This document shows, piece by piece, positions 6,860 through 23,102 of a stretch of 32,369 nt of DNA. Made by a program: the position numbers and the translations under genes. Within the stretch, counting starts at the first letter, position 1. Each line of letters opens with the position of its first letter. The DNA lies in the IMG/VR virus record IMGVR_UViG_3300037189_031854, positions 1-32,369 of that record. The stretch is one strand, 5' to 3'. The notes beneath the pieces are model-generated. The model was not told where the DNA came from, ran no database searches, and saw only the letters and a program-made list of their open reading frames with translations. This DNA comes from a virus.

Positions 6860-7897
6860 ATTTGTGGCATAGCAGGTTTTATAGGTAATTCAAAAGATCC
6901 TGATGTTAGCTTTAGAATAATATCAAATTTATTTGATAATTTAGAAATTAGGGGCAAAGATGCGTCTGGTTTTTGGGGATCAAATAAAAATAATAAAATT
7001 CTTTATCATAAAGAACCAACTCGTTCTTCCAATTTTGTAAATAAAAATATTTGGAAAAATATCAAAGATCTAAATCCAAATTTGCTTTTATGTCATGCTA
7101 GGGAGGCTTCTTCTGGCTCTGGTCTTCCAAGAGATAATAAGAATAATCATCCTTTTGTAAATGAAGACTTATCTATCGCTTTAATTCACAATGGCAGAGT
7201 TCCAAATCATGTTTATAATTTTTTGAAAAATAAATATGAAGTTCACACATTATGCGATTCTGAAATTTTATTAAGATTATTTCAAAGTGGATTTTATAAA
7301 AATGAAGAAAAAATAGAAAATAGATTATTGGGAATCAATAATCTATGGTCAATGGCTTGTGAGTCGCATATGGCTGTAGCTATTGGCGAATTGAGCAAAG
7401 AAGAAAAGAGATTGTGGCTATTTAGAAATGAACATCGTTCTTTATTTTATGTTGACATGATGGATTTACTAGGGCAAGTTTTCTTTGTCTCCACCGCAGA
7501 AATTTGGAGCGATTCAACAAGAGAATTCAATTTTGATTGCGAAGCGGCACAGTTACCAACCGACGAAGTTTGGCTATTTGAATTGTCAGAAGAATTAAAA
7601 ATTAATAAATTTGATATAATATCAGAAGAAATTGATAATTGGATCGAAGATGGCAATTTTTTAAATTTTGAAAAACCTAAGCTTACTAATAAAATATATA
7701 CTAATTTAAATTTAGAAGAGCAATGTGAAGATTTTTCTCTTGAAAATTATAATTTAGCAAAATATAAAGTAGCAGAAATAATTAATTATTCTTATGAATT
7801 AGAATCAATTATCGAAAATAGCTCAGATTATGATTTTTTAATAGATAACATCAAGGAGTTAGAAAAAATATTTTTAAATATTTTAAATAAAAGTTGA
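6860..7897 (+). CDS. Class II glutamine amidotransferase with apparent ATT start
   Basis: Read from the ATT at 6860, the protein begins [M]CGIAGFIG, the N-terminal-nucleophile glutaminase signature with Cys2 as nucleophile. R81 in HAR, the oxyanion pair N111-G112 (HNGR) and D133 (CDSE) follow at spacings like GlmS (Cys1, Arg73, Asn98-Gly99, Asp123). It would hydrolyse glutamine and pass ammonia to an acceptor. The 345 residues comprise about 200 of glutaminase and a C-terminal part that I do not recognise; no full asparagine-synthetase or GlmS isomerase domain is visible. An in-frame TAG at 6848 leaves only AGG, TGT, TTT and ATT before Cys2, so no ATG, GTG or TTG is available. AGAGG lies six bases before ATT, a good ribosome site. 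A downstream TTG at 7082 would delete the catalytic Cys. Confidence 0.85.
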   Translation: MCGIAGFIGNSKDPDVSFRIISNLFDNLEIRGKDASGFWGSNKNNKILYHKEPTRSSNFVNKNIWKNIKDLNPNLLLCHAREASSGSGLPRDNKNNHPFVNEDLSIALIHNGRVPNHVYNFLKNKYEVHTLCDSEILLRLFQSGFYKNEEKIENRLLGINNLWSMACESHMAVAIGELSKEEKRLWLFRNEHRSLFYVDMMDLLGQVFFVSTAEIWSDSTREFNFDCEAAQLPTDEVWLFELSEELKINKFDIISEEIDNWIEDGNFLNFEKPKLTNKIYTNLNLEEQCEDFSLENYNLAKYKVAEIINYSYELESIIENSSDYDFLIDNIKELEKIFLNILNKS

Positions 7898-7909: not shown

Positions 7910-8485
7910 ATGGAAGAAGAAGAAAAAATAGAAGTAGAGATAGAGAACGTTCTATCTAATAAAACAAAAAAAATAAAATCTGGTAAGAAAGGCAAAAGAG
8001 TAGAATTAGAAGTTGTAAAAGAACTTAATTCTAGGTTTCATGAAATATTAAACTCTAATCCTTCTTGGGGCAAGTTTTCTAGAACAATAGGCAGTGGAAA
8101 CAGGTGGGGGCAAAATGTATTTCTTTCTAAAAATGCTATAAATAATTTTTCAGGAGATTTAGTTTGTCCTGAGAATTTTAAATTTGTTTTAGAATCAAAA
8201 GGTGGCTATAATGATATAGATCTTTGTTCTGCTTTTGATAAAGGCCAAAAGGAATTAGACGAATTCTTAAAACAAGTTTCTGAAGATTCCAAAAGAACTG
8301 GCAGAAAGCCAATGCTTTTATGGAAAAAAGATAGAAAGCCTAGATTGGCTTTTATAAAGCATTATGATATAGGCAAAGATCTATATAAAGATTTTGAATT
8401 TTTTATGAAATACAATGATTGGTTAGTTTTTAACTTTAAAGATATATTGTCATTAAAGGATGATTTTTTTTTTAATATATGTTAG
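7910..8485 (+). CDS. PD-(D/E)XK-type endonuclease, possibly Holliday-junction resolvase-like
   Basis: This 191-residue protein has a basic N-terminal segment, then an early helix with acidic E32/E34 in GKRVELEVV, and the nuclease core S81-G82-D83 followed by E95-S96-K97. That is the D-x(n)-E-x-K arrangement of the PD-(D/E)XK fold. Family members include resolvases, RecU-like enzymes and phage repair nucleases. The RTIGSGNRWGQ segment between helix and core resembles the glycine-rich region of junction-resolving members. It lies with recombination gene 46 and nucleotide metabolism on the same strand, consistent with resolving branched phage DNA. The exact substrate is inferred. Confidence 0.72.
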   Translation: MEEEEKIEVEIENVLSNKTKKIKSGKKGKRVELEVVKELNSRFHEILNSNPSWGKFSRTIGSGNRWGQNVFLSKNAINNFSGDLVCPENFKFVLESKGGYNDIDLCSAFDKGQKELDEFLKQVSEDSKRTGRKPMLLWKKDRKPRLAFIKHYDIGKDLYKDFEFFMKYNDWLVFNFKDILSLKDDFFFNIC

Positions 8486-8513
8486 CTAAAAAGGATCGAT
8501 CTCAAAAAAAAAT

Positions 8514-9827
8514 ATGTTTAGTTTATTTTCCATTCTAAAAAGCCTTGGATTTCAACAAAAAAATAATATTTTTTTTGATAAAAACATTAATGTCGAAGTT
8601 CACCCAGATCATGTGTTGATAATGGATGGCGAAAACGTTTTCGCACACATAAATATTGATGAAAATTATGAACATCAAGTTTTAGACAGAATAGCTTGGA
8701 TCATTGAAATCCCTATTGAATTTGATGAAATTTCTTATGAAAAAAATATTCCAAATATTGAAGGGTATTATCAACCCTGGGCTAGTGAAAATAGCGTGAC
8801 GGAGAGAAGAAGATTATTTCATCATTATTTTTTGAAGAATGCATCAAATAAAAAACAACTTATGTCCATTAATCAATTAGATATAAAAGCTAAAGATTCT
8901 ATCATTAGCATTAACTCGAACGAAATTAATTGGCAGTTTCCAGCATGTACGGAAAAATTTTATTTTTACAATCATGCTTTTGTTAATTCAAAGATAAAAG
9001 AATATTATGTTTCGTTTCCTTGGGCAACTTTCATAGACAAGCGTATGTTTTTGAACGATGAAAATATACAAAAAATTAAAAATATTATATCTACAAAAGA
9101 TGGTAAAAAGCATACTGTATGTCAACATATCCGGTGGAGCTGGTTAATTGATTTGTGGGAGGAGATCGGAATCACAGACGTTCATTTATCTCATTATGAA
9201 AAAAATATAAATAATACGGATAAGATAAAATTTCATTCATGGGCTTTGATTGCGGCTAATTACGAAAACAAAGACAGGTCAAGAGACTTAAAAGTCAAAA
9301 CAAATAAAAACAAAAAATATTTAGCGTCTTTTATTGGAGCTTATACAAACTATTATCGTAACACAATCAGATTAGATTTAAAAAACATATTAGAAAAAGA
9401 AAACCAAATAATCTATGAATTAAAAGATGAATGGTTTTATGAAAAAATTGTTTTTAATCATCAAGTTAAAAAAGAGAAATTATCTAGTGAGTACATGGAG
9501 TCTTATGATAAAGAAACTCAAAGATATAACGACATACTCAGCGACTCAATATTCTCTTTGTGTCCGGAGGGGACTGGGCCTAATACAATTAGACTGTGGG
9601 AAAGCATGGCAATAGGTGTGATTCCAGTAATATTCTCAGATGATTGGACGCCCCCTAAAATAACAGGGTTAGAGTGGAGCGATTTTTCTGTTTTTATCAA
9701 AAAAACAGACTTAAAAGATACTATTTCCATACTTCGCTCTTTCTCTGAAGAGGAGTTAGAACAAATGAAATTAAACTGTATTAACGCTTATAAATATTTT
9801 AGACAAATGGACTGTTTTACTAATTAG
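8514..9827 (+). CDS. Exostosin-like (GT47-type) glycosyltransferase
   Basis: A 437-residue soluble protein whose C-terminal third carries the exostosin signature SLCPEGTGPNTIRLWESMA (about 348-366) followed by GVIPVIF, the nucleotide-sugar binding part of a GT-B fold. The TVCQHIRW and ASFIGAY segments are shared with the C-terminal half of the protein encoded at 14237-16528, so the two are paralogues within one cassette. There is no signal peptide or membrane anchor, so it works in the cytoplasm. It appears to open the glycosyltransferase run, 28 bases after the nuclease stop, with AAGGAT about 20 bases upstream and no better ribosome site. Donor and acceptor cannot be read from the sequence. 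Confidence 0.8.
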   Translation: MFSLFSILKSLGFQQKNNIFFDKNINVEVHPDHVLIMDGENVFAHINIDENYEHQVLDRIAWIIEIPIEFDEISYEKNIPNIEGYYQPWASENSVTERRRLFHHYFLKNASNKKQLMSINQLDIKAKDSIISINSNEINWQFPACTEKFYFYNHAFVNSKIKEYYVSFPWATFIDKRMFLNDENIQKIKNIISTKDGKKHTVCQHIRWSWLIDLWEEIGITDVHLSHYEKNINNTDKIKFHSWALIAANYENKDRSRDLKVKTNKNKKYLASFIGAYTNYYRNTIRLDLKNILEKENQIIYELKDEWFYEKIVFNHQVKKEKLSSEYMESYDKETQRYNDILSDSIFSLCPEGTGPNTIRLWESMAIGVIPVIFSDDWTPPKITGLEWSDFSVFIKKTDLKDTISILRSFSEEELEQMKLNCINAYKYFRQMDCFTN

Positions 9828-9834
9828 GAGCGTT

Positions 9835-10674
9835 ATGGATAAAATGGAAGAAAAATATTTAGGGTCTTCAGTCGATGGGCCTGCGGATATTTTCGATAGA
9901 ATAACTGAAACGCCTATTAAAAAAGTTGCTATTTTATTTCGTGCTTGTCACGAAGATGACTACCTGATCGATCATTTTATAAGCTATTATAAAAAAGTTG
10001 GAGCTAATATTTTTATTGCTAACTTCAGTTACAGGTTCCCAGAAGATGAGGAAAATTTCAAAGATTTCGTGAATAAGACAACAAAGAAATACCCAGAAAT
10101 TATATACAACATTGGGCCTCATGTATTAAATGATTCAATTGGTGTAAACAGAACAAAAGAATTATTAGAAATCCAAAACGACATAGATTATGTAATACCG
10201 GCGGATCTTGACGAATTCCACGAGTATATTAAGGACAATGTCCTGCTGGCAATAGATGATCTAGAAAAAAATGGTTGTGATGTGATGTGTGGAACAACAG
10301 TAGAAAGAATATCAGAAGATGGTTTTACAAAAAAAATCGAAGTAGACAAAGATATATTTGATCAATTTCCTAAATTTAACAATGAACTATATGGATTTCC
10401 AAAAATTTCATTGATTAAAAAAGAGTACTATAAATTTGTTGGCTGTGGGCATCATTACATAGATAAAAAGTTTATTGACGAGTTTGGTATAAAAATAAGT
10501 GATTCTGGAAAGACTCATCACTTTAGGTGGAGCGAAGAAGGAAAAGTAAGAATGGAAAAATGGGTTCGTTCTTACAAAGACCCTGCTTGGACTGGGTGGA
10601 AGGATATAAAACGTGCTCAAGATAAACTTGACGCATTCAATTATAATTTGATTGATTACAAGAGGCCAAAATGA
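9835..10674 (+). CDS. Glycosyltransferase, GT-A fold (GT92/GT2-like) with DxD
   Basis: A 279-residue protein beginning after a short leader with a KKVAILFRACHEDDYL strand, followed by helices typical of GT-A enzymes, and a metal-binding DLDEF (D124-x-D126) in VIPADLDEFHEY. A C-terminal THHFRWSEEGK region resembles the acceptor side of GT92 or Glyco_tranf_2_4 proteins. AGGAG five bases before the ATG is a clear ribosome site. It starts seven bases after the exostosin-like gene and its stop overlaps the next ATG by four bases. The sugar transferred is unknown. Confidence 0.78.
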   Translation: MDKMEEKYLGSSVDGPADIFDRITETPIKKVAILFRACHEDDYLIDHFISYYKKVGANIFIANFSYRFPEDEENFKDFVNKTTKKYPEIIYNIGPHVLNDSIGVNRTKELLEIQNDIDYVIPADLDEFHEYIKDNVLLAIDDLEKNGCDVMCGTTVERISEDGFTKKIEVDKDIFDQFPKFNNELYGFPKISLIKKEYYKFVGCGHHYIDKKFIDEFGIKISDSGKTHHFRWSEEGKVRMEKWVRSYKDPAWTGWKDIKRAQDKLDAFNYNLIDYKRPK

Positions 10675-11432
10675 CAAACTATCTGTGTATTGAACACGAC
10701 AAAGGAGCCAGGATAGGGCATCAAACTAACAACTACTTTTCTTTTTTGCTTATTTGCAATTTCTACAACCTTACCCCAGTATATCATCCATTCTCGGGAT
10801 ACTCTTCTCATTTTGAGCATGTTCTTTCATTTAATGACATGCATATTTTGAGTTGTGAAGAAAAGTCAAGCATCAATGTAAATAGTGCCGATGACATTTT
10901 GAATCAAAAAAACGAAGGCGTTTTGTATAGGCTTGATCTTGGAAAAAACAGCAGCATATTCAATCAGTTGTTGAAGCCTGTGCCTAAAAAAGATTCGATT
11001 TTTAAGCTTTACCAACAACACAAAAAAAGACTTGGTTCCAAATACTACGAAAAAAACCCATATAAAGAAAACAATAATTTGATAGTCCACATAAGAAGAG
11101 GTGATGCCGTTGGTATGGAATCAAGAATCTTAGGCGTTGATTACTTCCACAGATTAGTGAAGAAAATTTTTGAGAACGATGGAGAATATAACTTGTACAT
11201 AACATCCGAACCAAATCTTGAGGATGTAAGTATATTTAACGAATTCAATCCCACAATACTAACACACAAAACAGATATTGAAGCGTTTTACCATATGGCA
11301 AACGCAGATGTAGTCGTTGGATCACCAAGCGGATTCAGTCATTTAGCTTACATTCTTGGTAAGGGAGATTACTATAGATCTCCTAAGGATTGGTTTTATT
11401 ACGATAAAGATGTAAAGATTGCCTACAAATGA
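10671..11432 (+). CDS. Fucosyltransferase-superfamily glycosyltransferase (GT11/GT23-like)
   Basis: This 253-residue protein opens with an RIGHQTNNYF loop like the first nucleotide-binding loop of alpha-1,2/1,6-fucosyltransferases. It has the hallmark basic motif HIRRGD (H140-D145), then a DIEAFYHMANADVVVGSPS region (about 203-220) matching the C-terminal donor-site motif. In known members the HxRxGD arginine binds the GDP-sugar phosphate. No GDP-fucose synthesis gene is present in the window, so the donor would come from the host. It overlaps both neighbours by ATGA. The class is confident; fucose specificity is only suggested. Confidence 0.78.
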   Translation: MTNYLCIEHDKGARIGHQTNNYFSFLLICNFYNLTPVYHPFSGYSSHFEHVLSFNDMHILSCEEKSSINVNSADDILNQKNEGVLYRLDLGKNSSIFNQLLKPVPKKDSIFKLYQQHKKRLGSKYYEKNPYKENNNLIVHIRRGDAVGMESRILGVDYFHRLVKKIFENDGEYNLYITSEPNLEDVSIFNEFNPTILTHKTDIEAFYHMANADVVVGSPSGFSHLAYILGKGDYYRSPKDWFYYDKDVKIAYK

Positions 11433-12445
11433 AATTGCCAAAAAGAAATACAATCAAATTTTTAGAATCAAAAAATCATAACTATTTTGGTCACGATAAA
11501 TTATCTTATGAGTTTCATAATGTGATTATGTCTAATGGTATTTTATTTGATAAAGATGGAGTTGTTTTACCTGAAACTTTAGACGAGCGTATTTTTTGGG
11601 AGCCGTCTTGCATTTCTAGATTTATGCGTGACAAAAACATATTGAACGAACATGTTCAAATTAGAAGAAAAGATATTAAGAATAAACATGAACAAGCTTT
11701 TAAATGTTCTGATTTTATAGATGTTGAGAATTGCGTAGACTTAACACATCCTTTTGGTTATTATGCTTTTGGGCATTTATTTGATACGCTTCAAAGACTT
11801 TATCCTATAAAATCTCAAATACAAGATCCAAATATTAAATTTATAGTATCAACACACGACAGAATTACAGACTTTATAAAACACTTGTCTGCGTTTTCTG
11901 AAAGAGACATAAGAAAAGAAGACTTGATAGTGGCAAATGAATTGAACATAAAGATACGCAATTTAATATATTCATTATCCCCAACAATACCAACAGAAAT
12001 AGACAGAGACGCCTACAGTTGGATTTTAGAGAGGTATTTTTCACTCTTTAACATACAAAATATCGAGCCAAAATATAGCCTATATTTAAGCAGAAACCAT
12101 ATTAAAGTTGGGAATAGAGGTGTTATTAATGAAAAAGAAGTTATTGATGCTCTGTCCAAAAAAGAATTTATTATTCTAAATGGGCAAGAACCACTTGATT
12201 TAGTGGTTGAATATTTCGCTAATGCAAAAATTATAATTGGAGCACATGGATCTATGTTTGCAAATTCTATATTCTGTAATCCTGAAGCTAAAATAATAGA
12301 GTTTTGCCCAAACAACAGAGTGTGTTACAATTTTAGAAATGCATTCAAGATGGCGGAAAAATACAAACATATATTAATAGAAGCGGATAAATCTTTTAAT
12401 ATAATCATAGATATAGATGCTCTTGAACTGGAATTAGAAATATGA
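11429..12445 (+). CDS. GT61-family (DUF563) glycosyltransferase
   Basis: A 338-residue protein with the GT61 C-terminal pattern: SLYLSRNH, then a helix with EVIDAL, then FANAKIIIGAHGSMFANSIF (G271-A-H273-G274) and a PEAKIIEF strand. This is the arrangement seen in xylosyl- and related glycosyltransferases of this family in bacteria and eukaryotes. The N-terminal half is divergent. It has no transmembrane segment. It overlaps its neighbours upstream and downstream by four bases (ATGA), implying translational coupling within the cassette. The acceptor is unknown. Confidence 0.78.
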   Translation: MKLPKRNTIKFLESKNHNYFGHDKLSYEFHNVIMSNGILFDKDGVVLPETLDERIFWEPSCISRFMRDKNILNEHVQIRRKDIKNKHEQAFKCSDFIDVENCVDLTHPFGYYAFGHLFDTLQRLYPIKSQIQDPNIKFIVSTHDRITDFIKHLSAFSERDIRKEDLIVANELNIKIRNLIYSLSPTIPTEIDRDAYSWILERYFSLFNIQNIEPKYSLYLSRNHIKVGNRGVINEKEVIDALSKKEFIILNGQEPLDLVVEYFANAKIIIGAHGSMFANSIFCNPEAKIIEFCPNNRVCYNFRNAFKMAEKYKHILIEADKSFNIIIDIDALELELEI

Positions 12446-13419
12446 TTAGGATTTTACCAATGACATTCAAGCCCTTTTATGTTTGGCCAAATGTCTATTT
12501 TCCATTTAGACACTACTTTCAAGATAAAAGACTCAATATTTTTATTATTGAAAATATAGTTCATAATTTTAATTGGCTTGATGAATGTAAAAATAAAATC
12601 AACGATAGTCATTTTTTCTTTGTTTATTGTGGTTGGTATATGGATAATCATCATGCCAAGCACTACCATGAAATGTTCGAGTATCTAAAACTGAATAAGA
12701 ACAATTTTTTCTTTCTGTTCAACTCTATTCAAGAGAAAAATTTTCTAGAACAAAAAGGATTTTTTGGAGAATTGATAAATCATAATGCTTGGATAGATGA
12801 AAACATAATAAAGCCCGAAGTTATAGAAAAAAAATACGATGCCATACTAGTTTCCAGACAAAGAGATTTCAAAAGACATTACTTAGCAAGAAAGGTGGAT
12901 AAGCTGGCTATCGTTGCGGGTGGAAATAATCATTGTGGCCCAAGTTTATCTTATTCTTTACCGCCACATATTTACAACAATGACAGGCAACTCAATATAG
13001 AAGAAGTTTGTAAAAAAATTAATCAATCTTATTGCGGACTAATGTTATCTGCTATGGAAGGAGCCTGTTTTTCCTCAAGTGAATATCTATTGTGCGGCAT
13101 ACCGGTTGTTTCTACAAAATCATTAGGAGGAAGAGACTTTTGGTATAATGACTATAACTCTATAATATGTGATGACGACGAAGATTCCGTCGCAGAATCT
13201 GTTGAATTTTTTAAAAACAACCCCAGAGATGGGGATAGGATTAGAAAAGATCACATACTTTTAGCCCAAAAACAGAAAGAAAAATTTATCAATATTTTAC
13301 AATTAGTTTTTAATAAATACAATGTGCAAATTAATGCTAAAGACTATTTTGAAAAAAATTATTATCATAAAATGAGACGTCATACTCACATAGATGAGGT
13401 CAAAAATATTTTTTCATGA
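12442..13419 (+). CDS. GT-B glycosyltransferase, GT4-like
   Basis: A 325-residue protein with a Rossmann-type C-terminal half: AILVSRQRDFKRHYLA, a GLMLSAMEGACFSSSEYLL segment with the E-x7-E motif (E206, E214), and CGIPVVSTKSLGGRDFWY, which in GT4 enzymes contacts the donor sugar nucleotide. The N-terminal half, rich in Phe, Trp and His, would bind the acceptor and is short, so this is a compact member. ATGA overlaps join it to both neighbours. It probably uses a host nucleotide sugar. Confidence 0.8.
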   Translation: MIRILPMTFKPFYVWPNVYFPFRHYFQDKRLNIFIIENIVHNFNWLDECKNKINDSHFFFVYCGWYMDNHHAKHYHEMFEYLKLNKNNFFFLFNSIQEKNFLEQKGFFGELINHNAWIDENIIKPEVIEKKYDAILVSRQRDFKRHYLARKVDKLAIVAGGNNHCGPSLSYSLPPHIYNNDRQLNIEEVCKKINQSYCGLMLSAMEGACFSSSEYLLCGIPVVSTKSLGGRDFWYNDYNSIICDDDEDSVAESVEFFKNNPRDGDRIRKDHILLAQKQKEKFINILQLVFNKYNVQINAKDYFEKNYYHKMRRHTHIDEVKNIFS

Positions 13420-14240
13420 AAATTAATCTGTTTACCACTTATTTTAAGTCTGAATCTGAGTATAGGCAAAAAGAGTTAGACTATTGTTTAACTCAGAACA
13501 TAAGAAATCCATGCATCAATAAAATAAACATATTTCTTGATCAAAACACTAGATCTTCTGACTTCTATCATTTTTTTGAAGAGCCGGATATCTACGCAAA
13601 TAAATTAAATTTCATAAAAATAGATAGAATCCCTACATATAAAGATTGGATTGACTACTCTATCAAAAATAATACCGTTTCTATATTTGGTAATGCCGAT
13701 ATGTATTTTGACGATAGCATCAACGAAGTATACAAATATCTTGAAAAACCAAATAGCTTAATGTGCTTGTCTAGATATGAAGATCTTGATGAACATATTG
13801 TTCCCCACGAAAACCCCCAATGGTCGCAAGATTCTTGGATTATTAATTTCAGCAAAGAAAATAATTTTAGCTTTATAAAAGAACTAGATGTACCAACAGG
13901 AAAGTATCGCTGTGATAATAAAATAGCTTATATTTTTTCTGTGCATGGTTGGGATCTTTATAATCCTTTTTATGAGATAAAGTCTTACCACAGGCACATA
14001 TCTAAAATAAGAACATATGATAAAGCAGACACTTCAATTATTGGATCTTTGGCTTTTGTTAGTCCTACAACTAATCCGGAAAATCCTTCAATCGTAGAAT
14101 ATCACATAATGCCAATTAAAACTACTAATATTAAAAAAGAAGTTATCATTGGACGGTGGCTTGAAAATAAAATTAGAGGTATTGAAGACTCAACGTTTGA
14201 ATACATATTAGACCAACCCATGGACTTTATTATTTTATGA
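13416..14240 (+). CDS. Putative GT-A-like glycosyltransferase
   Basis: A 274-residue protein beginning MKINLFTTYF with RQKELDYCLTQNI, a common opening of a marine family of predicted glycosyltransferases. It has a candidate metal-binding motif NADMYFDD (N93-A-D95, D99-D100) in the position of a GT-A DxD, and a QDSW segment near residue 140 that could be the catalytic base region. The C-terminal part contains a His-rich acceptor-like stretch (SYHRHISK). Assignment rests on these motifs and on lying between certain glycosyltransferases with ATGA overlaps on both sides. A related nucleotide-diphospho-sugar enzyme is possible. Confidence 0.6.
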   Translation: MKINLFTTYFKSESEYRQKELDYCLTQNIRNPCINKINIFLDQNTRSSDFYHFFEEPDIYANKLNFIKIDRIPTYKDWIDYSIKNNTVSIFGNADMYFDDSINEVYKYLEKPNSLMCLSRYEDLDEHIVPHENPQWSQDSWIINFSKENNFSFIKELDVPTGKYRCDNKIAYIFSVHGWDLYNPFYEIKSYHRHISKIRTYDKADTSIIGSLAFVSPTTNPENPSIVEYHIMPIKTTNIKKEVIIGRWLENKIRGIEDSTFEYILDQPMDFIIL

Positions 14241-16528
14241 ATATAATAGAACAAAAAGAAAAAGCATACGAGTTACAACTGAGTGGTCGCCACATTGAAG
14301 CTAGAGACATATATCAACAAATAGTTACAGATGATACTGAAGACTTTAAACTTTTAATAAGATACGCTAATTGCCTAGATGACGGAGATCATAGAAAAAT
14401 ATCACTTTATAAAAAAGCTTTGAAAATTGGTCAAACTCCTTGGGCTTGCTTAGGATTATCTAAGGTTTTTCTAAATCAAAATGAATTTGTTTTGGCTTTT
14501 GATTATATCGCTAAAGCAGAAGATATTTGTTCAAAAACTGGATGGGGTAAGTGTGAGGTTACAGCTAATGCAATCCAAGACCTTAAAAACAAAATTAATT
14601 TAGAGTTCAAATATAAAAAAACATTAGAAAACAAATTCTCTATACCTCAAAAGAATAAAAAAAACGTATACATAAAAGTGCAAAATGGATTGGCCAATAG
14701 GTTAAGAACCATCAATTCTTTTTATAGTCTATCAATACTTTTTGGCAAAAATTTGTTCGTATGTTGGGAGTCTGGTCCGGGATGGTCAAATGATAAATTT
14801 ACAGATTTATTTATTAATCAAGAAATTAATTTTATATCTGGTGAAGAATATTCTACAAAAAAAAATAATATATTTGATCTAAAATCGAGTATAATTAAGT
14901 CAGATGATAGTATTTCCTATACATTCAATGAATCTGTAAGAAGTATTTTTCATAAGATTCTGACAGAAGACTTTTGTTATAGCGGTGATTCTTGTTTAGA
15001 GTATATGATGCCACATTTTTTCAAAGAACAAAACTGTTTTTATTCTCGCCTACAACCTATTAAATGGATACAAGATAAAATAGATAAAATATATAATATT
15101 AATTTCAACAACAATACGGTTGGCATACATATAAGAAGAGGAGATGCATGGAATAGTACATGCAAAAATCAATTTAAAGTATCTGATGATCAAAGTTTTT
15201 TTTGTTTACTAGACGAAGAGATAGATAAAAATCCTAATGTAAATTTTTTCTTATCAACAGATAGCGAAGAAACAAATGAGATTTTTTTAAATAAATATAG
15301 AGATAAAATATTTTATAACACAAATAAAACTTTTTTTAATAGTGTTTGCATGTATGAACCTAAATATAATCAAGACGATGCCGTGGTGGATTTATTTTTA
15401 TTATCTAAAACATCTAAAATAATAGGATCAAATTGGAGCAGTTTTAGTTCTGTGTCTTCTAAAATATCATTTAAACAATTGGTAATAGCTAAAACCCAAC
15501 AAGAAATCGATGAAGTTGAAAAAGAAATAAATAATATCGAAATTAGTCTTTCTGAAGATGATAAAACTTTAGAAGTTAAATCTGTTCTTTGGCAATCACC
15601 AGCAATAACAGAAAAACAATCTTTTTACAACCATAGTAATATACACAATGACTCTACGGATAATTTATATATTGCTTGCTCATGGGCAAGTATAATAGAT
15701 ACTTTACAAATACAATTTCCCAAATGTGATGATTTTTTACATGAACCTATTTGTAAAAATTATTTAGAGGAGATATTTGATAAGATTGAAATTCCATCCA
15801 ATAAAAATACACACACAGTCTGTCAGCATATAAATTGGCACAAACTATTAGGATTTTGGAAAAAAATTGGAATTAAGAATATTCATCTGTCACATTTGAG
15901 CCAAAAATCATATAAGTTCCCCCTAGATGGGATAAATTTATTTCCATGGCATATATGCGCAGCTAATATAGAAAATCCCAACAGGAACAAAGGGATTAAA
16001 ATCAAAAGATATGAAGAAAAGCAATATTTGTGTTCTTTTATAGGAGCGCGCGACAGATGGTATCCGTCTGACATAAGAGAGCAGCTATATCAGCTACTAA
16101 AAGATAATGATGAGATTTATTTTAAGCTCAAAAATTCATGGTTTTATAATAATATTGTCTATAAAAAACAAATTAAAAAACAAACTCTATCTGAGTACGA
16201 GATTAGCTTGGAAGAAGTTGAGACCTTTGAATACAACACCGTATTGTCCGATTCTGTATTTAGTTTGTGCCCAGAAGGAACTGGGCCAAATACCATTAGA
16301 CTTTGGGAAAGCATGGCTGTTGGGTCTATTCCAGTATTGTTTGAAAATGATTGGATCAGACCAGATATTAAAGGCTATAATTGGGACGACTTCTCAGTTA
16401 CTATATTAACAACTGATATTAAAAATGTCTTTGATATACTAAAATCAATCCCTGTTGATAAAATAGAAGAGATGAGACAAAACTGTATTAACGCCTATAA
16501 TATTATTAGGTTAAGAACCTGTTTTTAA
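14237..16528 (+). CDS. Three-part glycosyltransferase: TPR, fucosyltransferase-like and exostosin-like domains
   Basis: At 763 residues this is the largest protein of the cassette. Residues 1-130 look like TPR helices (QLSGRHIEARDIYQQIV, then a repeat with LGLSKVFLNQNEF). Residues 140-420 are a fucosyltransferase-superfamily domain with QNGLANRLRTINS and HIRRGD (298-303), ending in an IGSNWSSFSS donor motif. Residues 440-763 are an exostosin-like domain with SLCPEGTGPNTIRLWESMA (about 677-695), collinear with the 437-residue protein encoded at 8514-9827. One polypeptide could thus add two sugars in succession. It begins by an ATGA overlap and the next gene starts one base after its stop. The domain boundaries are estimates; no membrane segment is seen. 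Confidence 0.8.
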   Translation: MNIIEQKEKAYELQLSGRHIEARDIYQQIVTDDTEDFKLLIRYANCLDDGDHRKISLYKKALKIGQTPWACLGLSKVFLNQNEFVLAFDYIAKAEDICSKTGWGKCEVTANAIQDLKNKINLEFKYKKTLENKFSIPQKNKKNVYIKVQNGLANRLRTINSFYSLSILFGKNLFVCWESGPGWSNDKFTDLFINQEINFISGEEYSTKKNNIFDLKSSIIKSDDSISYTFNESVRSIFHKILTEDFCYSGDSCLEYMMPHFFKEQNCFYSRLQPIKWIQDKIDKIYNINFNNNTVGIHIRRGDAWNSTCKNQFKVSDDQSFFCLLDEEIDKNPNVNFFLSTDSEETNEIFLNKYRDKIFYNTNKTFFNSVCMYEPKYNQDDAVVDLFLLSKTSKIIGSNWSSFSSVSSKISFKQLVIAKTQQEIDEVEKEINNIEISLSEDDKTLEVKSVLWQSPAITEKQSFYNHSNIHNDSTDNLYIACSWASIIDTLQIQFPKCDDFLHEPICKNYLEEIFDKIEIPSNKNTHTVCQHINWHKLLGFWKKIGIKNIHLSHLSQKSYKFPLDGINLFPWHICAANIENPNRNKGIKIKRYEEKQYLCSFIGARDRWYPSDIREQLYQLLKDNDEIYFKLKNSWFYNNIVYKKQIKKQTLSEYEISLEEVETFEYNTVLSDSVFSLCPEGTGPNTIRLWESMAVGSIPVLFENDWIRPDIKGYNWDDFSVTILTTDIKNVFDILKSIPVDKIEEMRQNCINAYNIIRLRTCF

Positions 16529-16529
16529 A

Positions 16530-17459
16530 ATGAAAAAATATAACTGCTTAATAATGAACAACGAAATATGGCTATTAGAAGCCCGTATTAAATATGATTT
16601 ACAATGGTTTGATTTTATCGTTATAGCAGAGGCAGACTCTACATTTAGCGGAATTAAAAAACCCTTTTTTTATGAAAAATATAGCTATCTATTTGAAGAA
16701 TATAAAGATAGAATAATTTATGTAAAAATCAATAATTTACCTAAACCATATAAAGGTAATTTTATAGGGTTTAATGATCTTCCATTAAAGGAAAATAGGT
16801 GGATTGTTGAGTTTGAACACAGAAACAGGCTACAAGAAGCCTTGTCAAATATTGCACAACCCGATGATATTATTTGTATTCAAGATATAGATGAAATTCA
16901 AAATATACAATATCTTGATCAAATTAATGATTTCAATAGAATACAATTTTTATCATATATCAACTTCAAATATAGTATAAGTAACTCGCCAACAAAAAAA
17001 ATATGGAGAAAAGGATATGTTACAAATTACTCTAATATTAAAAAAATCAACATAAATGACTATAGAAGAATTAATCTAAAGTGCGTTCCTCATAAATTGG
17101 ACCACATAGCCTCGTATGAGTTTAGATTTGATGACGAAGAAAGAAAAACAGTATACAATAGCTATACAGCGCCGATACAAAAAGTTTCTATGCAAACAGA
17201 TAGACACGGTTGGCACATTTCATCCATAACAAGCAAAATAGATGGAGATATGAAATGGGAGTGTTTTTCTCATCAAGAATTTGCTCACAAATTTAAACGA
17301 GCCGAAGATTTAGATATAGAACAAGTTACGGATAATATCATAAAGCAATATTTGGATAGACAACATTCATCTAACTTGCATTCACTAGCCCCAGCGTTTA
17401 TTGAAAATTCTAGATTTGCATCTTTGTTTTTCTATGGAGAGAATACTTCTAATGAATAA
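16530..17459 (+). CDS. GT17-family (GnT-III-like) glycosyltransferase
   Basis: A 309-residue protein with the GT17 opening: NEIWLLEARI, a DFIVIAEADSTFSG strand-loop (E34 to G41), then KPFFYEK and YKDRIIYVKI. A HRNRLQEAL helix and an IQDIDEI metal-site-like segment near residue 118 follow, and HGWHISS near 227 completes the core. GT17 includes beta-1,4-N-acetylglucosaminyltransferases that act on mannose cores, and bacterial or phage members of unknown specificity. It begins one base after the large fused enzyme and overlaps the sulfotransferase start by eight bases. Confidence 0.8.
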   Translation: MKKYNCLIMNNEIWLLEARIKYDLQWFDFIVIAEADSTFSGIKKPFFYEKYSYLFEEYKDRIIYVKINNLPKPYKGNFIGFNDLPLKENRWIVEFEHRNRLQEALSNIAQPDDIICIQDIDEIQNIQYLDQINDFNRIQFLSYINFKYSISNSPTKKIWRKGYVTNYSNIKKININDYRRINLKCVPHKLDHIASYEFRFDDEERKTVYNSYTAPIQKVSMQTDRHGWHISSITSKIDGDMKWECFSHQEFAHKFKRAEDLDIEQVTDNIIKQYLDRQHSSNLHSLAPAFIENSRFASLFFYGENTSNE

Positions 17460-18084
17460 AATTTTTGTCATAGGTTTTCCCAAAAGTGGTACAACATCAA
17501 TGTACACATCTTTGACTTTAGCGAGAATACCCTCTATCCACTGGTCAACGGATGATTTTCTTCCCATAAAGACTCTAAATGAGATTATTGTTGGTATTAG
17601 TATTCAAAAATCTAAATATCAAAGCAAACCGCTATTATCTGAATTAAATAATTATCAAGCATTCACGCAAATGGAAACTTGTATAGATAAAGATAGGTGC
17701 TATTGGCCTCAATTAATAGATATTCCCTTATTGGATCAACAATATCCTAATAGTAAATTCATTTTTAATGATAGAAATATTGATAATTGGCTAAGGTCAT
17801 TATATAGATGGAACATAAGCACAGGACCAATTAGACAAAAGGGTCAATCTCTAATTGAAAGAATAATTAGACTGGACATTCCTGGCCTACCAAAAGGTAA
17901 AGGGAAAACTGATGATGAACTTGAACATTGGTATCTTCAACATAAGAACAATATGATAGATTTTTTTAAAAACAAAGACAATTTTTTATTGTTTAATATT
18001 GAACTAGATAGTGGTGAGAAATTAGCAGAGTTTCTTGAGATACAAAACTTTTCTTGGTGTCACAAGAACAAATCTTGGCCTTAA
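17452..18084 (+). CDS. Sulfotransferase (PAPS-dependent)
   Basis: From the ATG at 17452 the protein is 210 residues and begins MNKIFVIGFPKSGTTSM, the 5'-phosphosulfate loop of PAPS sulfotransferases (PKSGTTS, residues 10-16). A KFIFNDRNIDNWLRSL segment near 100-115 fits the 3'-phosphate binding region. The 17452 ATG is preferred over an in-frame ATG at 17434 because it places the conserved strand at the N-terminus, with GGAGAG ten bases upstream. It overlaps the GT17 stop. It would add sulfate from host PAPS, most likely to a glycan made by the adjacent enzymes. No PAPS synthesis gene is present. Confidence 0.8.
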   Translation: MNKIFVIGFPKSGTTSMYTSLTLARIPSIHWSTDDFLPIKTLNEIIVGISIQKSKYQSKPLLSELNNYQAFTQMETCIDKDRCYWPQLIDIPLLDQQYPNSKFIFNDRNIDNWLRSLYRWNISTGPIRQKGQSLIERIIRLDIPGLPKGKGKTDDELEHWYLQHKNNMIDFFKNKDNFLLFNIELDSGEKLAEFLEIQNFSWCHKNKSWP

Positions 18085-18102
18085 AAATAGATAGGTTTAA
18101 AA

Positions 18103-18936
18103 ATGATTGAAGACGAAATATATTTTCTTGAAAACCCAGCCCTATCAAATGTGTATTTTTTTGGAGAATGTTTTTTTCAAAATATACACAAAGATTTAAA
18201 ACAAAATTCTCCTGAGGTATATGATTCGTTTAACATTCAAAACATATCATGTGGAGGAGGAACATGTTATGAGTTTTTGATGTTTTTAAAATCTAAGCCT
18301 AATTTGAATGAAGGAATATACTTTATTGCAGGCTCAAGTCATGATAGAAATGGGTGGAATAATGGCAAAACAATAGTTGAAATTAAGAACTGGTTTGACA
18401 CTGTCTACTACGACTCCATACTTGTTTTTGCTTTAACTGGTCCTTTTAACCCAAGACCAGAGCATGAGCACATGAACTGTAATAAATATAATCAAGAAAA
18501 AATAAATATGACAAATGAAAAAAATATTTTTCATATTGATTTAAGATTTGATGCAAATGACGATAAAATTACAAAAGATGGATTGCACTTACCTAACAAA
18601 AAAATAATAACGTCAAATATTTCAAACTATCTAACAAATAATCAATTTAGAACAAAAACATTCACGCAAAAAATTAAAAAAAATATTAGAAAAATAGAGA
18701 TAAAAGAAAACTATAGTAATATTTATATTTTTCACGGACACAATAATAGTTATTTTTATTTATATAATAATGACATTAGTATTAAAAAATATGCAATACT
18801 AGGACATAAAAAAGTGAAAGAAGGATATGCTCCATATCAAGATAGGATGCTTTTTAACAAAATAAAAAATCCTCAAATTGGTTTTATATCTTTTTCTGAG
18901 CCGATATATGTTGATAGTATCATTGTAGAAACATAA
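18103..18936 (+). CDS. Possible SGNH/GDSL-like hydrolase or glycan-modifying protein
   Basis: A 277-residue protein of uncertain family. The N-terminal strand VYFFGECFFQNI (Gly21-Glu-Cys23) sits where SGNH hydrolases carry GDS. An IAGSSHDRNGW segment near 75-85 resembles a central block, and DGLHLPNKK (D159, H162) matches the C-terminal Asp-x-x-His block. The nucleophile would be Cys rather than Ser, so it may be inactive, a thiol variant, or not a member at all. Residues 200-277 form a separate strand-rich tail. It follows the sulfotransferase by 18 bases on the same strand, suggesting a carbohydrate acetylation or deacetylation role. Treat the call as tentative. Confidence 0.4.
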   Translation: MIEDEIYFLENPALSNVYFFGECFFQNIHKDLKQNSPEVYDSFNIQNISCGGGTCYEFLMFLKSKPNLNEGIYFIAGSSHDRNGWNNGKTIVEIKNWFDTVYYDSILVFALTGPFNPRPEHEHMNCNKYNQEKINMTNEKNIFHIDLRFDANDDKITKDGLHLPNKKIITSNISNYLTNNQFRTKTFTQKIKKNIRKIEIKENYSNIYIFHGHNNSYFYLYNNDISIKKYAILGHKKVKEGYAPYQDRMLFNKIKNPQIGFISFSEPIYVDSIIVET

Positions 18937-18944
18937 GGAAAAAA

Positions 18945-18971
18945 TAAATGAAAATTCAAATCAATAATGCT
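18945..18971 (+). repeat. Direct repeat copy 1 (gene-start duplication)
   Basis: These 27 bases, beginning TAAATGAAAATTCAAAT, match 19358-19384 with one mismatch. Each copy contains an ATG and the codons MKIQINNA. Copy 1 opens a reading frame that stops after 20 residues, while copy 2 opens the intact 112-residue gene. Confidence 0.85.
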
Positions 18972-19010
18972 TGCGGAACTGTTGACTCTATTATGAAAAA
19001 GAAGTTTTAA
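18948..19010 (+). pseudogene. 20-codon remnant of a duplicated gene start
   Basis: The frame starts MKIQINNA, as in the gene at 19361, with a strong AAGGAA ribosome site, but runs into unrelated sequence and a TAA after 20 residues. It looks like the surviving 5' end of a second gene copy, or a leader created by duplication. A functional micropeptide is not excluded. Confidence 0.45.
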
Positions 19011-19048
19011 AGATATCAAAAATACAATACTAATAGGATTATGTCATT

Positions 19049-19261
19049 ATGTCAATATCAGAACTTAGAAAAGTAGAATATTACCGTATTAAAAAAGATA
19101 ATTCTTGGGACATAGAAGTAGCACTAATACCTTTTGAGATTCCGTACGAAAATTCTGTGGACTATATCTGGTATACGTTATCTGACTTAAATCTAACACA
19201 AGATATTCATACTATTGTTATCTCTACGTTCTCAGAAGAAATAGTGCTTAGAGAGGCATGA
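19049..19261 (+). CDS. Small hypothetical protein
   Basis: A 70-residue unrecognised protein (MSISELRKVEYYRI start) with alternating strands and several aromatic residues; it has no Cys, signal or membrane segment. AGGA about 12 bases upstream is a weak ribosome site. It lies between the duplicated gene-start remnant and a decayed reading frame, so its status as a real gene is moderately supported. Confidence 0.45.
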   Translation: MSISELRKVEYYRIKKDNSWDIEVALIPFEIPYENSVDYIWYTLSDLNLTQDIHTIVISTFSEEIVLREA

Positions 19262-19336
19262 AAAATATTATTCATTGGAGACATGTATACAAAACTATCT
19301 CTAGATTTGTATCTTTGTTCGGCGGCTAATAATTGA
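19258..19336 (+). pseudogene. Probable decayed gene start with frameshift at an A-tract
   Basis: An ATG at 19258 overlaps the previous stop. If one A of the AAAAA tract after it is removed, the frame reads MKILFIGDMYTK and then about 13 more residues to a TGA; as written, the frame instead gives an unrelated 23-residue peptide. The KILFIGD opening looks like a nucleotide-binding or SGNH-type enzyme start, suggesting a truncated and frameshifted remnant. Low certainty because the match is short. Confidence 0.3.
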
Positions 19337-19357
19337 CACAATATTAAAAGGTAACAT

Positions 19358-19384
19358 TAAATGAAAATTCAAATAAATAATGCT
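19358..19384 (+). repeat. Direct repeat copy 2 (gene-start duplication)
   Basis: The partner of 18945-18971, with 26 of 27 bases identical. It covers the start codon and first eight codons of the 112-residue gene. The two copies are 413 bases apart and bracket the small-gene zone, as expected of a tandem duplication followed by decay or recombination. Confidence 0.85.
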
Positions 19385-19699
19385 GAAATAATAGATTTAA
19401 CTATACAAGAAATGTATGATTGTTGGTTTATAGATAAAGAAAGCTTTCATCACTGGTTGACTAGAAAGTCTAACATAAAAATACCCCAAGAAGCGGATAC
19501 TGACACTTGGTTTTTTGTGGAACAAGAGGAAGAAAGATCCTACCAAGTTAATTTAAAAGAATACATAGAATGGTGGAATCCTCTTGTTGCTTATGTAAGA
19601 GCCATGAAGGTCAATAATTATGAGATAGTTGATGATTACATTGTATATGTAAAATTTGAGATATACAATAATAATTACCCAGATGGATATTGGGAATGA
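19361..19699 (+). CDS. Hypothetical protein
   Basis: A 112-residue acidic, Trp/Tyr-rich protein that I do not recognise. It has no signal peptide or membrane segment. A ribosome site AAGGT lies nine bases before the ATG. It closes the plus-strand run, converging with the minus-strand operon that ends at 19727, with only 27 bases between and no obvious terminator hairpin. Its start is duplicated at 18945. Confidence 0.55.
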   Translation: MKIQINNAEIIDLTIQEMYDCWFIDKESFHHWLTRKSNIKIPQEADTDTWFFVEQEEERSYQVNLKEYIEWWNPLVAYVRAMKVNNYEIVDDYIVYVKFEIYNNNYPDGYWE

Positions 19700-19726
19700 G
19701 CCGCCAAAGCTAGTTGTGTGTAAACA

Positions 19727-20464
19727 TTAAAATACTTGTAGTTGAAGATTGTCTGAAATATATTTATTTTCCCCAAATTCCATTTCGAACCAAACATTAT
19801 ACATTCCGCATTCCATATTTAATAGTTCTGTATTTATAAAATAACTTCCTTCTGTTCCTCTTCTGTGTTCTACTAAATCGCCTTCTACAACAATTCTAAG
19901 ATCTTTTTCTTTTGGCAAACAATCCCCACAGATTTTTTCTACCCAAATTCTTAGAGGAGAAGAAACTGATAAATTTGCATAGTATCTTCTAAGCTCAGAT
20001 ATATTTGGAACATTTGGTGTAATTTCAATATTAATCCATCTTTTTTCACCATATCTGATTCTATTTGGTCTAAAGCCAAAAGAAAAATCATAAATAATAG
20101 GAAGGTCAGAAGCAAACCAAAGATCTGGAGTTACACTAAATTCATTGGTCACAGAGCCAGATTGTTGGGAGTCAAAATTAACATACCAAACATCTAAATA
20201 CTTTCCAATTACATATTTTTGATCTTCTACTTCAATATTTATTGAATATTGACCTTCACTAATTAAATTTATATCTGGCTCTTCTAATAATTGAACTAAT
20301 CTTTTTCCTTCTGGATTATCTTGAGTTATGCAACTATTATCTAAATAATAAATTTCTACTTTATCTACACTCAAGACATTCTGTCTTTGGTTGGAGTTAT
20401 AGGTGAATAATCTTAGATTTAAATTATCTCCTGCAACTATATTTTGATTTCTTTCTTTAGACAT
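19727..20464 (-). CDS. Hypothetical virion-associated protein
   Basis: A 245-residue protein with dense strand-forming sequence and few charged helices, suggesting beta-sandwich or immunoglobulin-like domains: an N-terminal half from NLNLRLFTYN to VWYVNFD and a second from RWINIEI to MYNVWFEMEF. The CGDCLP motif and a later Cys in the second half could hold it together. It is the last gene of a minus-strand set after gp26 and the gp51-like gene, starting five bases after the latter's stop. This places it with baseplate or hub proteins, but no family is recognised. Confidence 0.55.
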   Translation of the reverse strand: MSKERNQNIVAGDNLNLRLFTYNSNQRQNVLSVDKVEIYYLDNSCITQDNPEGKRLVQLLEEPDINLISEGQYSINIEVEDQKYVIGKYLDVWYVNFDSQQSGSVTNEFSVTPDLWFASDLPIIYDFSFGFRPNRIRYGEKRWINIEITPNVPNISELRRYYANLSVSSPLRIWVEKICGDCLPKEKDLRIVVEGDLVEHRRGTEGSYFINTELLNMECGMYNVWFEMEFGENKYISDNLQLQVF

Positions 20465-20651: not shown

Positions 20652-21701
20652 TTAGGCTTGAGTCGCTGAAGTCTTTCGCTTCGCCCGTGGGAAGAAAAAA
20701 TTTGCTTCTAGTGGCAATTCAATTTCGAAATCATTTAATGTGTAAGGATTATTGACTGAAATTTTTGTTTCCACTCCAAATGGCGGATCATTAACAACAG
20801 TTCTAAGATAAGCCACATCTTGAATTGGCAACTTTTTCAATAGAGTTTGAATTTCTATTTTATTATTTAGCCCTTCGATTTCTTCTAACAAATAAGCTGT
20901 TCGATAAAGAAGAGTATCGTCTGCTTGTCCTGATAGATCAAAGTTCTTAGCTCTTCGTTCTCTGTAATCCTGTACAGATTGCTCGTCTTTTCCGGTAGCA
21001 AGCTTGTACTTAAATCTATAACCAGTTACAGGCAGAACGTCTTCTAAATTTTCTTTCGAATAATCTTCACTGCAGTAATTAACATAAAGATCATTTAAAT
21101 TAATTGTTGTTGCAAAAGTTTGATCTGACTCTGGGTCTTTTACTTCTACATCATATTCTGGCGTGTATGATATGCCTCTTAGATAAATCAATAAATAAGT
21201 TCTATCTTGAGTTAAAAAATTTGCTGAGTCATAATTTTCTTGCATACAACGATTGAAAATCATATTTATTGCTTGGCCTTTTTTAACGAATCTTGGCGTT
21301 GCAAGAATTTCTTCTTCTTCTCCGGTCATTGGTCTTATGTGAATTATTCCATTTGTAGGACCATCATCTTCATGATAAAATTTTCCCTTTGAAGGAAGCT
21401 CTACTTTTTCATAAACTAGACTCCCCTTGGAGTTTATTCCAGCAATTAACTCTTCTAGCTTACTGCTCCCAGTCACCCTCATTTCACTTGGTTTTGCTGC
21501 TTTAGTTGGCTCTTTTGTTTTACCCATTCTTTGAGAGGCTAATGCATTCTTGAAAGCCTCTGGTATTCTGCCTGTTACTTTAACAGAACCTTCGCCCTGC
21601 GGATTTTGCAATTCCTTTTCAATATCTTGAACAACATCTTCTTGAGTTATTTCTTCGGCTGAAATTTGTTTCTTTTGGGGTCTGAAAGTTTCATCTGCCA
21701 T
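20652..21701 (-). CDS. 26: Baseplate hub protein gp26-like
   Basis: This 349-residue protein carries the conserved core of T4-family gp26 and related tail-chaperone/hub proteins: LPSKGKFY (102-109) followed by HIRPMTGEEEEILATPRF (121-138), then a region of helices and strands with LLYRTAYLLEEIEG. A low-complexity, acidic and Lys-rich N-terminus of about 90 residues precedes it. AAGGAG sits at the correct distance before the ATG. gp26 is needed for central hub assembly in T4. The small gp51-like gene follows, as in related phages. It is divergent from the plus-strand gene at 21749, leaving about 47 bases between them. Confidence 0.7.
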   Translation of the reverse strand: MADETFRPQKKQISAEEITQEDVVQDIEKELQNPQGEGSVKVTGRIPEAFKNALASQRMGKTKEPTKAAKPSEMRVTGSSKLEELIAGINSKGSLVYEKVELPSKGKFYHEDDGPTNGIIHIRPMTGEEEEILATPRFVKKGQAINMIFNRCMQENYDSANFLTQDRTYLLIYLRGISYTPEYDVEVKDPESDQTFATTINLNDLYVNYCSEDYSKENLEDVLPVTGYRFKYKLATGKDEQSVQDYRERRAKNFDLSGQADDTLLYRTAYLLEEIEGLNNKIEIQTLLKKLPIQDVAYLRTVVNDPPFGVETKISVNNPYTLNDFEIELPLEANFFFPRAKRKTSATQA

Positions 21702-22725: not shown

Positions 22726-23102
22726 ATAAAAAAATTAGTCTAATGGAAGTCAAGTCCGCACTAAAAGATTCTAGATTTAGATTATCTTTACCTAAAAGTT
22801 TAGATAAAGAAGTCAATGAATTTTTAAATAATCCAGGGTGTCCTTGTCATGTTCCTTTATACAAAAAAATATTAAAAGAATGTAAAGAACAACTGGAAAA
22901 ATATTATCCAAATTCTGATATAACTAACCTTGATGAAGAAATTAAAAAACTTGCCGATAACCAATGGACTGTAATTAATTGTAGCATTAATGATCTTGAA
23001 AAAGAATTGAGAAAGCTAGGCCCAGGCAGAAAGCAGCTAGATATCGCTAGGTATGAAGATCAAATCACTGTTGTAATTAATGAATTAGATATAGTTTTTT
23101 AG
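22722..23102 (+). CDS. Hypothetical protein with NPGCPCH motif
   Basis: A 126-residue helical protein with a conspicuous LNNPGCPCHVPLYKKIL segment (C40-x-C42-H43) that could bind metal, and a Lys/Glu-rich remainder. I do not know the family by function. It is joined to the zinc-ribbon gene by an ATGA overlap. Its stop codon overlaps by three bases the stop of the opposing glycosyltransferase gene, so two convergent transcripts meet with no terminator between them. Confidence 0.6.
   Translation: MNKKISLMEVKSALKDSRFRLSLPKSLDKEVNEFLNNPGCPCHVPLYKKILKECKEQLEKYYPNSDITNLDEEIKKLADNQWTVINCSINDLEKELRKLGPGRKQLDIARYEDQITVVINELDIVF

Follow-up and report, generated by a model that had tools for sequence, protein, structure and literature searches.

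Gene content and organisation of the locus

The DNA analysed here, a 32,369-nucleotide stretch that we call the window throughout, comes from a T4-like myovirus, with families of the T4 gp15 stabiliser, tail sheath, baseplate and gp19-type tube all present. Ten codirectional genes on the plus strand (A to J, 8514-18936) form a cassette whose coordinates were confirmed. Gene A (8514-9827) encodes a GT47, exostosin-like glycosyltransferase (PF03016, E=4e-22, 79.3 bits against a cut-off of 33.4), gene D (11429-12445) a GT61 enzyme (PF04577, E=2e-22), gene H (16530-17459) a GT17 enzyme (PF04724, E=3e-15) with matches at ten viral loci, and gene I (17452-18084) a sulfotransferase (Sulfotransfer_4, PF17784, E=1e-15) with a PKSGTT P-loop, its true start probably being the ATG at 17452 rather than a TTG at 17401. 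Gene G (14237-16528) encodes a single 763-aa protein in which a TPR-like N-terminus (sub-threshold) is fused to a NodZ-type fucosyltransferase domain (E=3e-7) and a GT47 domain (PF03016, E=4e-17, 63 bits against the same cut-off of 33.4).

The remaining genes are assigned with less certainty. Genes B, C, E and F are plausibly glycosyltransferases, given their motifs or sub-threshold matches. B (9835-10674) would be of GT-A type, with a DLDE motif and a PF13704 match below the cut-off, the only family matched, likewise below the cut-off, by its two homologues. C (10671-11432), a putative fucosyltransferase that is 53% identical to its homologue in contig L021, has no Pfam family above cut-off and carries an HIRRGD motif of the kind found in GT11/GT23 fucosyltransferases. 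E (12442-13419) is GT4-type by an EX7E motif and a PF00534 match of 25.2 bits, under the cut-off of 26.4, and F (13416-14240) is a putative GT-A enzyme with a DMYFD motif and no family match, whose low-confidence model (pLDDT 42.3) has alternating beta and alpha elements in the first 100 residues. J (18103-18936) has no profile match, no solved relative and a model with pLDDT 39.6; a search of solved structures with B, C, F, I and J gave no meaningful match. Since no transmembrane segment was found in any cassette protein, all ten look soluble.

These results agree in part with the earlier note on this DNA, which had listed the same ten genes. Profile searches recovered its two GT47 calls, GT61, GT17, the NodZ-type domain and the sulfotransferase; the GT92 call for B was not recovered, that of E as GT4-type falls just below the cut-off with its motif intact, and that of C rests on its motif. 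An SGNH-like identity for J has a DGLH motif in its favour (DxxH, block V-like), with GEC standing in place of the SGNH-type GDS, and stays unproven.

Five of the nine cassette junctions are 4-nt overlaps (at 10671, 11429, 12442, 13416 and 14237), all of them ATGA, as previously noted. The special translational coupling read into them does not hold: because such overlaps are common throughout the phage (outside the cassette, 14 of 72 close codirectional pairs have one), they indicate an operon and nothing further. Gene B has an exact TATAAATA 46 nt upstream, and an argument from late promoters was dropped, such octamers being too frequent to be informative.

The same phage population is represented by a 126.6-kb contig (G001) in which every window gene recurs at 99-100% identity. 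This contig is a linear fragment, and genes without a match there may sit beyond its ends. It also carries an HldE-like gene, a DegT aminotransferase and further glycosyltransferases, as well as fibre-like genes at 53-66 kb. A search of phage DNA at near sensitivity gave no match, and, within the sensitivity of the protein search, none of 50,697 GenBank phage records contained a relative of C, D, E, H, I or J. A non-exhaustive survey of 84,980 species with short conserved patterns gave no bacterial relative of H or of GT47 that might point to a host.

An inserted island at a variable site

The cassette has been inserted into the phage core at a position whose content varies. On its left lies a core gene for a PDDEXK nuclease (7910-8485, plus strand; PF24608, E=1e-20), and on its right a conserved phage gene (19727-20464, minus strand) adjoining a T4-type baseplate gene (20652-21701; PF12322, E=1e-12); both flanks are kept in the core relatives L094, L097, L098 and L099. 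The interval between them (8486-19726) measures 11,241 bp here versus about 500 bp in the close core relative L098, and in L094, L097 and L099 it holds other, unrelated cargo. A GT47 profile found no match in 22 core-relative records, nor in two more; as applied to those two extra records, the profile did find G001, G010 and Synechococcus phage S-SKS1. Besides the cassette, the island contains two small genes on the plus strand that we refer to as anchors: u19049 (19049-19261, 70 aa), 89-93% identical at the amino-acid level in phages of different core, and u19361 (19361-19699, 112 aa), 67-88% identical in seven other viral contigs of up to 381 kb.

Exchange, fusion and loss among phages with unrelated cores

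Cassette genes recur, at 50-81% amino-acid identity and in shuffled order, in phages whose core otherwise differs from this one. Two such contigs, G002 and G003, carry cassette genes (as does the G002-like G004), yet nothing in them matches the proteins of nrdA, nrdB, the tail sheath or the tail tube. Their homologues of G are 77% (G002) and 66% (G003) identical, the G003 copy bearing a different N-terminal module. Synonymous divergence is also uneven: dS is 0.27 for F against L030 and 0.76 for G against L021, compared with 1.89 for the core gene nrdA against the close core relative L098. Because some cassette genes thus have a dS far below that of a core gene, the island travels between unrelated phages. 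All cassette genes with estimable dS have dN/dS of 0.10-0.24 (0.20 for A against L030); the enzymes are maintained by purifying selection.

The B gene illustrates how such exchange leaves marks. Its 28-aa N-terminal leader (9835-9918, MDKMEEKYLGSSVDGPADIFDRITETPI), which ends at a junction near 9915-9919, matches, at 87-88% DNA identity, the beginning of a 333-aa gene present in L021, L037 and L038, and in L037 and L038 the match then switches to a B body sited elsewhere in the same locus. A role for the leader as a functional N-terminal tag was rejected, a separate 333-aa gene holding the 28 residues in L037 and L043. That separate gene, together with another fusion in L030, identifies the leader as a recombination scar, left by fusion or deletion.

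Gene order in relatives, proposed as a check on the cassette, gave a mixed answer, with conserved sub-blocks inside an overall shuffled order: C-D-F-G-H are adjacent in G002, and B-C-D-F-G-H in the L043 island. Order, content, fusions and single-gene losses vary between relatives, I and J are missing from G002 and the L043 island (two of the three best relatives), and no such island is present in the closest core relatives. The comparison shows genes being swapped, fused or dropped individually between phages whose cores are not related. The idea of a coherent glycan-building cassette therefore survives in its sub-blocks and in the selection acting on them, whereas that of a single fixed pathway to one sulfated oligosaccharide is not supported.

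Precursors, acceptors and competing explanations

As the earlier note stated, the window has no genes for sugar-nucleotide or PAPS synthesis. The 126.6-kb G001 fragment has neither a PF01370 epimerase nor an APS kinase, and the APS kinase family is absent from the 18 cassette-bearing records searched. The initiating sugar transferase PF02397 and the Wzx flippase PF01943 were found in 0 of 10 cassette-bearing records (controls 9/14 and 13/14). GDP-fucose synthesis genes, of which none were found in this phage, adjoin the sister island of G003 and are likewise encoded by S-SKS1, which suggests GDP-fucose as a donor.

The explanation that we prefer, tentatively and at somewhat short of even probability, is that this environmental T4-like myovirus carries a laterally mobile island for building glycans, whose enzymes would most likely act on host envelope glycan. 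They would work in the cytosol during infection, drawing on host nucleotide sugars and PAPS, and their product would be a branched glycan that carries fucose and, optionally, sulfate. The acceptor would be a surface molecule that first faces the cytosol, most likely an LPS-core- or lipid-linked precursor of the host envelope glycan. A changed coat would block rival phages or shift recognition, and rapid swapping of genes would diversify it. Glycosyltransferase clusters of T4-like and jumbo phages have been interpreted in print as envelope or LPS modification (PMC7029224, PMC7824862, PMC9602691). Against a preference for host glycan, soluble enzymes and the TPR-like part of G would suit a protein acceptor equally well.

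Soluble enzymes, the TPR-like module and the lack of PF02397 and PF01943 in the ten records would also fit a cytosolic glycosylation, and sulfation, of virion proteins ahead of assembly or while it proceeds, a reading that we consider unlikely, though still a serious competitor. Chloroviruses have their own capsid glycosylated by virus-encoded enzymes. Further precedents are a proposal, made from gene content, for some mycobacteriophages (PMC11256854) and a review of giant-virus glycans (PMC9614988). Long Thr/Pro tracts in fibre-like proteins of G001, G002 and G003 could serve as O-glycan acceptors; such tracts occur in 12 of 17 contigs that bear the cassette or an anchor, but also in 12 of 22 core relatives without a GT47 gene, a control against which they show no association as cassette-specific acceptors (a comparison with 0 of 8 annotated phages is misleading). 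Moreover, gene A has no clear late promoter in front of it, and the 13 exact copies of the octamer are scattered across the window. A narrower version, in which unrelated phages of one community swap a virion-glycosylation module via short recombining anchor genes and so alter their particle coat with a sulfo-fucosylated glycan on tail or fibre proteins (e.g., on Thr/Pro tracts), seems to us improbable.

The variability of the island also raises the prospect that it is a toolbox rather than a pathway, its enzymes gained singly, each altering a different glycan, and clustered only by a recombination hotspot. Content and order do vary, the L030 copy of E has an internal deletion, B carries its fusion scar, G swaps modules, and I and J drop out of the two relatives named above; yet the C-D-F-G-H adjacency persists in G002, preceded by B in L043, and every gene with an estimate is under purifying selection, which leaves this account rather unlikely. 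Far less credible is glycosylation of the phage's own DNA, as in T4-like hypermodification. A Mom-family DNA modification gene elsewhere in G001 and the T4-like core would fit it, but the sole thymidylate-synthase-type gene found in this fragmentary genome is by its match a thymidylate synthase; in an alignment by eye it has Asn at the catalytic Asn position, where dCMP hydroxymethylase has Asp. GT47, GT61 and GT17 are not known to be families of DNA glycosyltransferases.

Comparison with known systems

The labels 'unusual for a phage' and 'undescribed system' in the earlier note were too strong, as multi-glycosyltransferase clusters in T4-like and jumbo phages are already published (PMC9602691, PMC7029224, PMC7824862). 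The T4-like cyanophage S-SCSM1 encodes GMD, GDP-fucose synthase, NodZ, two other fucosyltransferases and five glycosyltransferases within ORF113-135, read by its authors as cell-wall synthesis and modification, and resembles this phage in clustering NodZ with several glycosyltransferases; the sections of that account drawn on here mention no GT47, GT61, GT17 or sulfotransferase (PMC9602691). S-SKS1 (HQ633071, 39-52 kb), the only cultured phage matching A or G, has a GT47-like gene (28-29% identity) adjoining GMD, GDP-fucose synthase and an annotated fucosyltransferase, but no other cassette protein matched there and Sulfotransfer_4 is missing.

The host recognition cluster of pelagimyophages is hypervariable and non-syntenic, with several glycosyltransferases (GT8 dominant), radical SAM cassettes and rfaE-type genes (PMC7029224). 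It shares with our island a T4-like core and several glycosyltransferase families in one non-syntenic region that varies among relatives, but lies between VrlC and gp14 with tail fibres, rather than between the PDDEXK gene and the gene at 19727-20464 (PMC7029224). Capsular polysaccharide modification clusters of jumbo phages are polymorphic and combine several glycosyltransferase families with a PfkB kinase and a nucleotidyltransferase; the words sulfotransferase, fucosyl, SGNH and exopolysaccharide are absent from that text, and the portion of it used here describes no transfer between unrelated phages (PMC7824862). Glycosyltransferases encoded by giant viruses act on the viruses' own glycoproteins (review PMC9614988). 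These viruses infect eukaryotes and their product is known, whereas the product of our island is a predicted one. Serotype-conversion gtr operons have a membrane flippase, GtrA, and a membrane-bound GtrC, unlike this cassette without transmembrane segments, and a Wzx/Wzy-type polysaccharide locus needs PF02397 and PF01943, the two families absent from the ten records searched.

While clustering as such is thus known, no earlier description of this combination of genes and of its movement from one unrelated phage to another was found in the literature surveyed. Our analysis documents a glycosylation island at a site that is near-empty in a close relative, traded among unrelated cores and marked by fusion and deletion scars. 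The TPR-NodZ-GT47 fusion and the linked sulfotransferase are concrete enzymes to assay, and such a case lets the purpose of glycosyltransferase clusters in phages be tested gene by gene.

Insertion of the island into a T4-like core

Judged by gene order, the island at 8486-19726, which carries the cassette genes A to J (8514-18936), is an insertion into a phage core. The non-cassette genes of this 32-kb viral record are T4-like (ribonucleotide reductase, dUTPase, SbcC/gp46-like, tail sheath, tube, sheath stabiliser and baseplate proteins). In four core relatives identified via nrdA (L094, L097, L098 and L099), gene order is the same on both flanks, except that the PDDEXK nuclease gene (7910-8485 in the window) is inverted in L094. 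From this gene to the equivalent of 19727-20464 (-), the distance is about 500 bp in L098 versus 11.2 kb in the window, while the other three relatives carry unrelated genes at the site, for example an RNA-ligase-like ORF in L094 (function assigned by eye from sequence). Two very short ORFs (59 and 66 aa), matched by no window protein, lie in the near-empty site, L098:14144-14643. A profile search found no GT47 in 22 core-relative records, nor in the L094 and L099 records; the profile works, since the search covering the latter two also recovered G001, G010 and Synechococcus phage S-SKS1 (HQ633071).

Other genes of the window also deserve mention. A glutamine amidotransferase-like protein (7082-7897), immediately 5' of the PDDEXK gene, has no match in the sequence compared from the four syntenic relatives, and adjacent tail tube paralogues (25896-26408 and 26486-27064; about 34% identical) are both kept in core relatives. 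Among the tail genes, near a sigma-like gene and the tail tube, 23099-24019 (-) encodes a borderline GT2 domain followed by TPR repeats, a candidate protein glycosyltransferase; because it is conserved at 34-54% in all four relatives, it is a lineage gene and not island cargo.

Records related to the window are all metagenomic, and most of them are probably fragments. G001, a 126.6-kb IMG/VR contig of the same population, adds a HldE-like fusion, a DegT aminotransferase, radical SAM/SPASM proteins, further glycosyltransferases and a second, NoeE-like sulfotransferase; neither PF01370 epimerases nor APS kinase were found in it. This sulfotransferase (L015:14142-15014 (-)) weakly resembles NoeE of rhizobial Nod-factor synthesis, and the same genome has a NodZ-type domain. 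A protein of 461 aa that contains some seven hydrophobic stretches (L013:15960-17345; G001 72960-74345) adjoins the radical SAM and aminotransferase genes, and the bacterial stress-linked trio PrkA, SpoVR and DUF444 lies at L015:16167-18248 and neighbours (G001 111-116 kb; positions inferred from batch search and gene lengths).

Gene content of the cassette

Genes were called mechanically. The ORFs and five ATGA overlaps of the earlier note were all in place when checked on the sequence, but such overlaps also join 14 of 72 gene pairs outside the cassette and, being frequent phage-wide, are an ordinary operon sign. Its family claims were borne out by Pfam for A (GT47), D (GT61), H (GT17) and I (sulfotransferase). 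E is borderline GT4, B a GT-A type protein close to PF13704, C and F a putative fucosyltransferase and a putative GT-A protein based on motifs, and J received no family from profile search or motifs. In G, Pfam placed a NodZ fucosyltransferase domain internally and GT47 at the C-terminus. Structure prediction of two proteins stayed below a useful level of confidence.

Exchange among unrelated phages

Cassette genes recur at 50-81% amino-acid identity in three other phage contigs, G002, G003 and G004. G002 and G003 resemble each other and show no match to the reductases, sheath or tube proteins of the window phage, and the G002 core encodes a UvsX-like recombinase, a polymerase, a primase and a reductase from families of its own; G004 matches G002 in the island surroundings, the region compared. 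Gene order differs among them: G002 has C-D-F-G-H, G004 (stretch L043) has tag gene-u19049-B-C-D-F-G-H, and the G003 island contains F', A-type pieces, G, J, H and I. The best-conserved parts are the small anchor genes u19049 and u19361, located beside or within islands.

By a simple Nei-Gojobori count, dS was 0.27 for F against stretch L030 and 0.76 for G against L021, well below the 1.89 obtained when the core gene nrdA was compared with that of a close core relative, and dN/dS was 0.10-0.24 where dS could be estimated (it was saturated for C). On these values, the enzymes are likely to be functional and to have passed from one phage lineage to another. Recombination scars indicate that genes were gained, fused and lost individually. 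The first 28 residues of B are the start of a separate 333-aa gene in L037 and L043, where u19049 and then the B body follow; in the window this leader is fused to the B body near 9915-9919, and in L030 it is joined to remnants of D and E, with E internally deleted. In the G homologue of G003, an A-type N-terminal module replaces the TPR-like one.

Proposed product and acceptor

Hydropathy predicted no membrane segment in any cassette protein. PF02397 and PF01943 were absent from 10 cassette-bearing, anchor-bearing or comparison records, with controls working, as was APS kinase from 18 records searched, so that donors and any export must be supplied by the host or be encoded in unseen portions of the genome. 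GDP-fucose is a probable donor, as the first genes of the G003 island share 49-55% identity with GMD and GDP-fucose synthase as annotated in S-SKS1, where these two are likewise neighbours of a GT47-like gene and of a gene annotated as a fucosyltransferase. Taken together, these observations favour a model in which cytosolic enzymes would build a fucosylated, possibly sulfated glycan; its acceptor, we infer, would be the host envelope.

The main rival places the glycan on virion proteins, for which Thr/Pro-rich fibre tracts looked attractive as acceptors, but core relatives without a GT47 gene have them about as often (12 of 22) as contigs that bear the cassette or an anchor gene (12 of 17). 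Very long, mucin-like Thr/Pro/Ser tracts are present in fibre-like proteins at L012:15620-18115 and L013:129-3662 (G001 53-61 kb), in L017-L019 (G002) and in L024 (G003); DNA coding for (PT)3 occurs in numerous large viral contigs from the environment, whether or not they carry the cassette, and is missing from all eight large annotated phages.

Relation to known phage clusters

A tblastn search of 50,697 phage records with A, C, D, E, G, H, I and J gave no match for C, D, E, H, I or J; A and G each had weak matches, to S-SKS1 and to an uncultured phage of 735 kb. Variable multi-glycosyltransferase clusters are already published for T4-like and jumbo phages, with GDP-fucose synthesis and fucosyltransferases, NodZ among them, included (PMC9602691, PMC7029224, PMC7824862). 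Compared with the clusters as described there, the island differs in its family mix, TPR-NodZ-GT47 fusion, linked sulfotransferase and insertion spot, and there is direct evidence that phages unrelated to one another exchange its genes.
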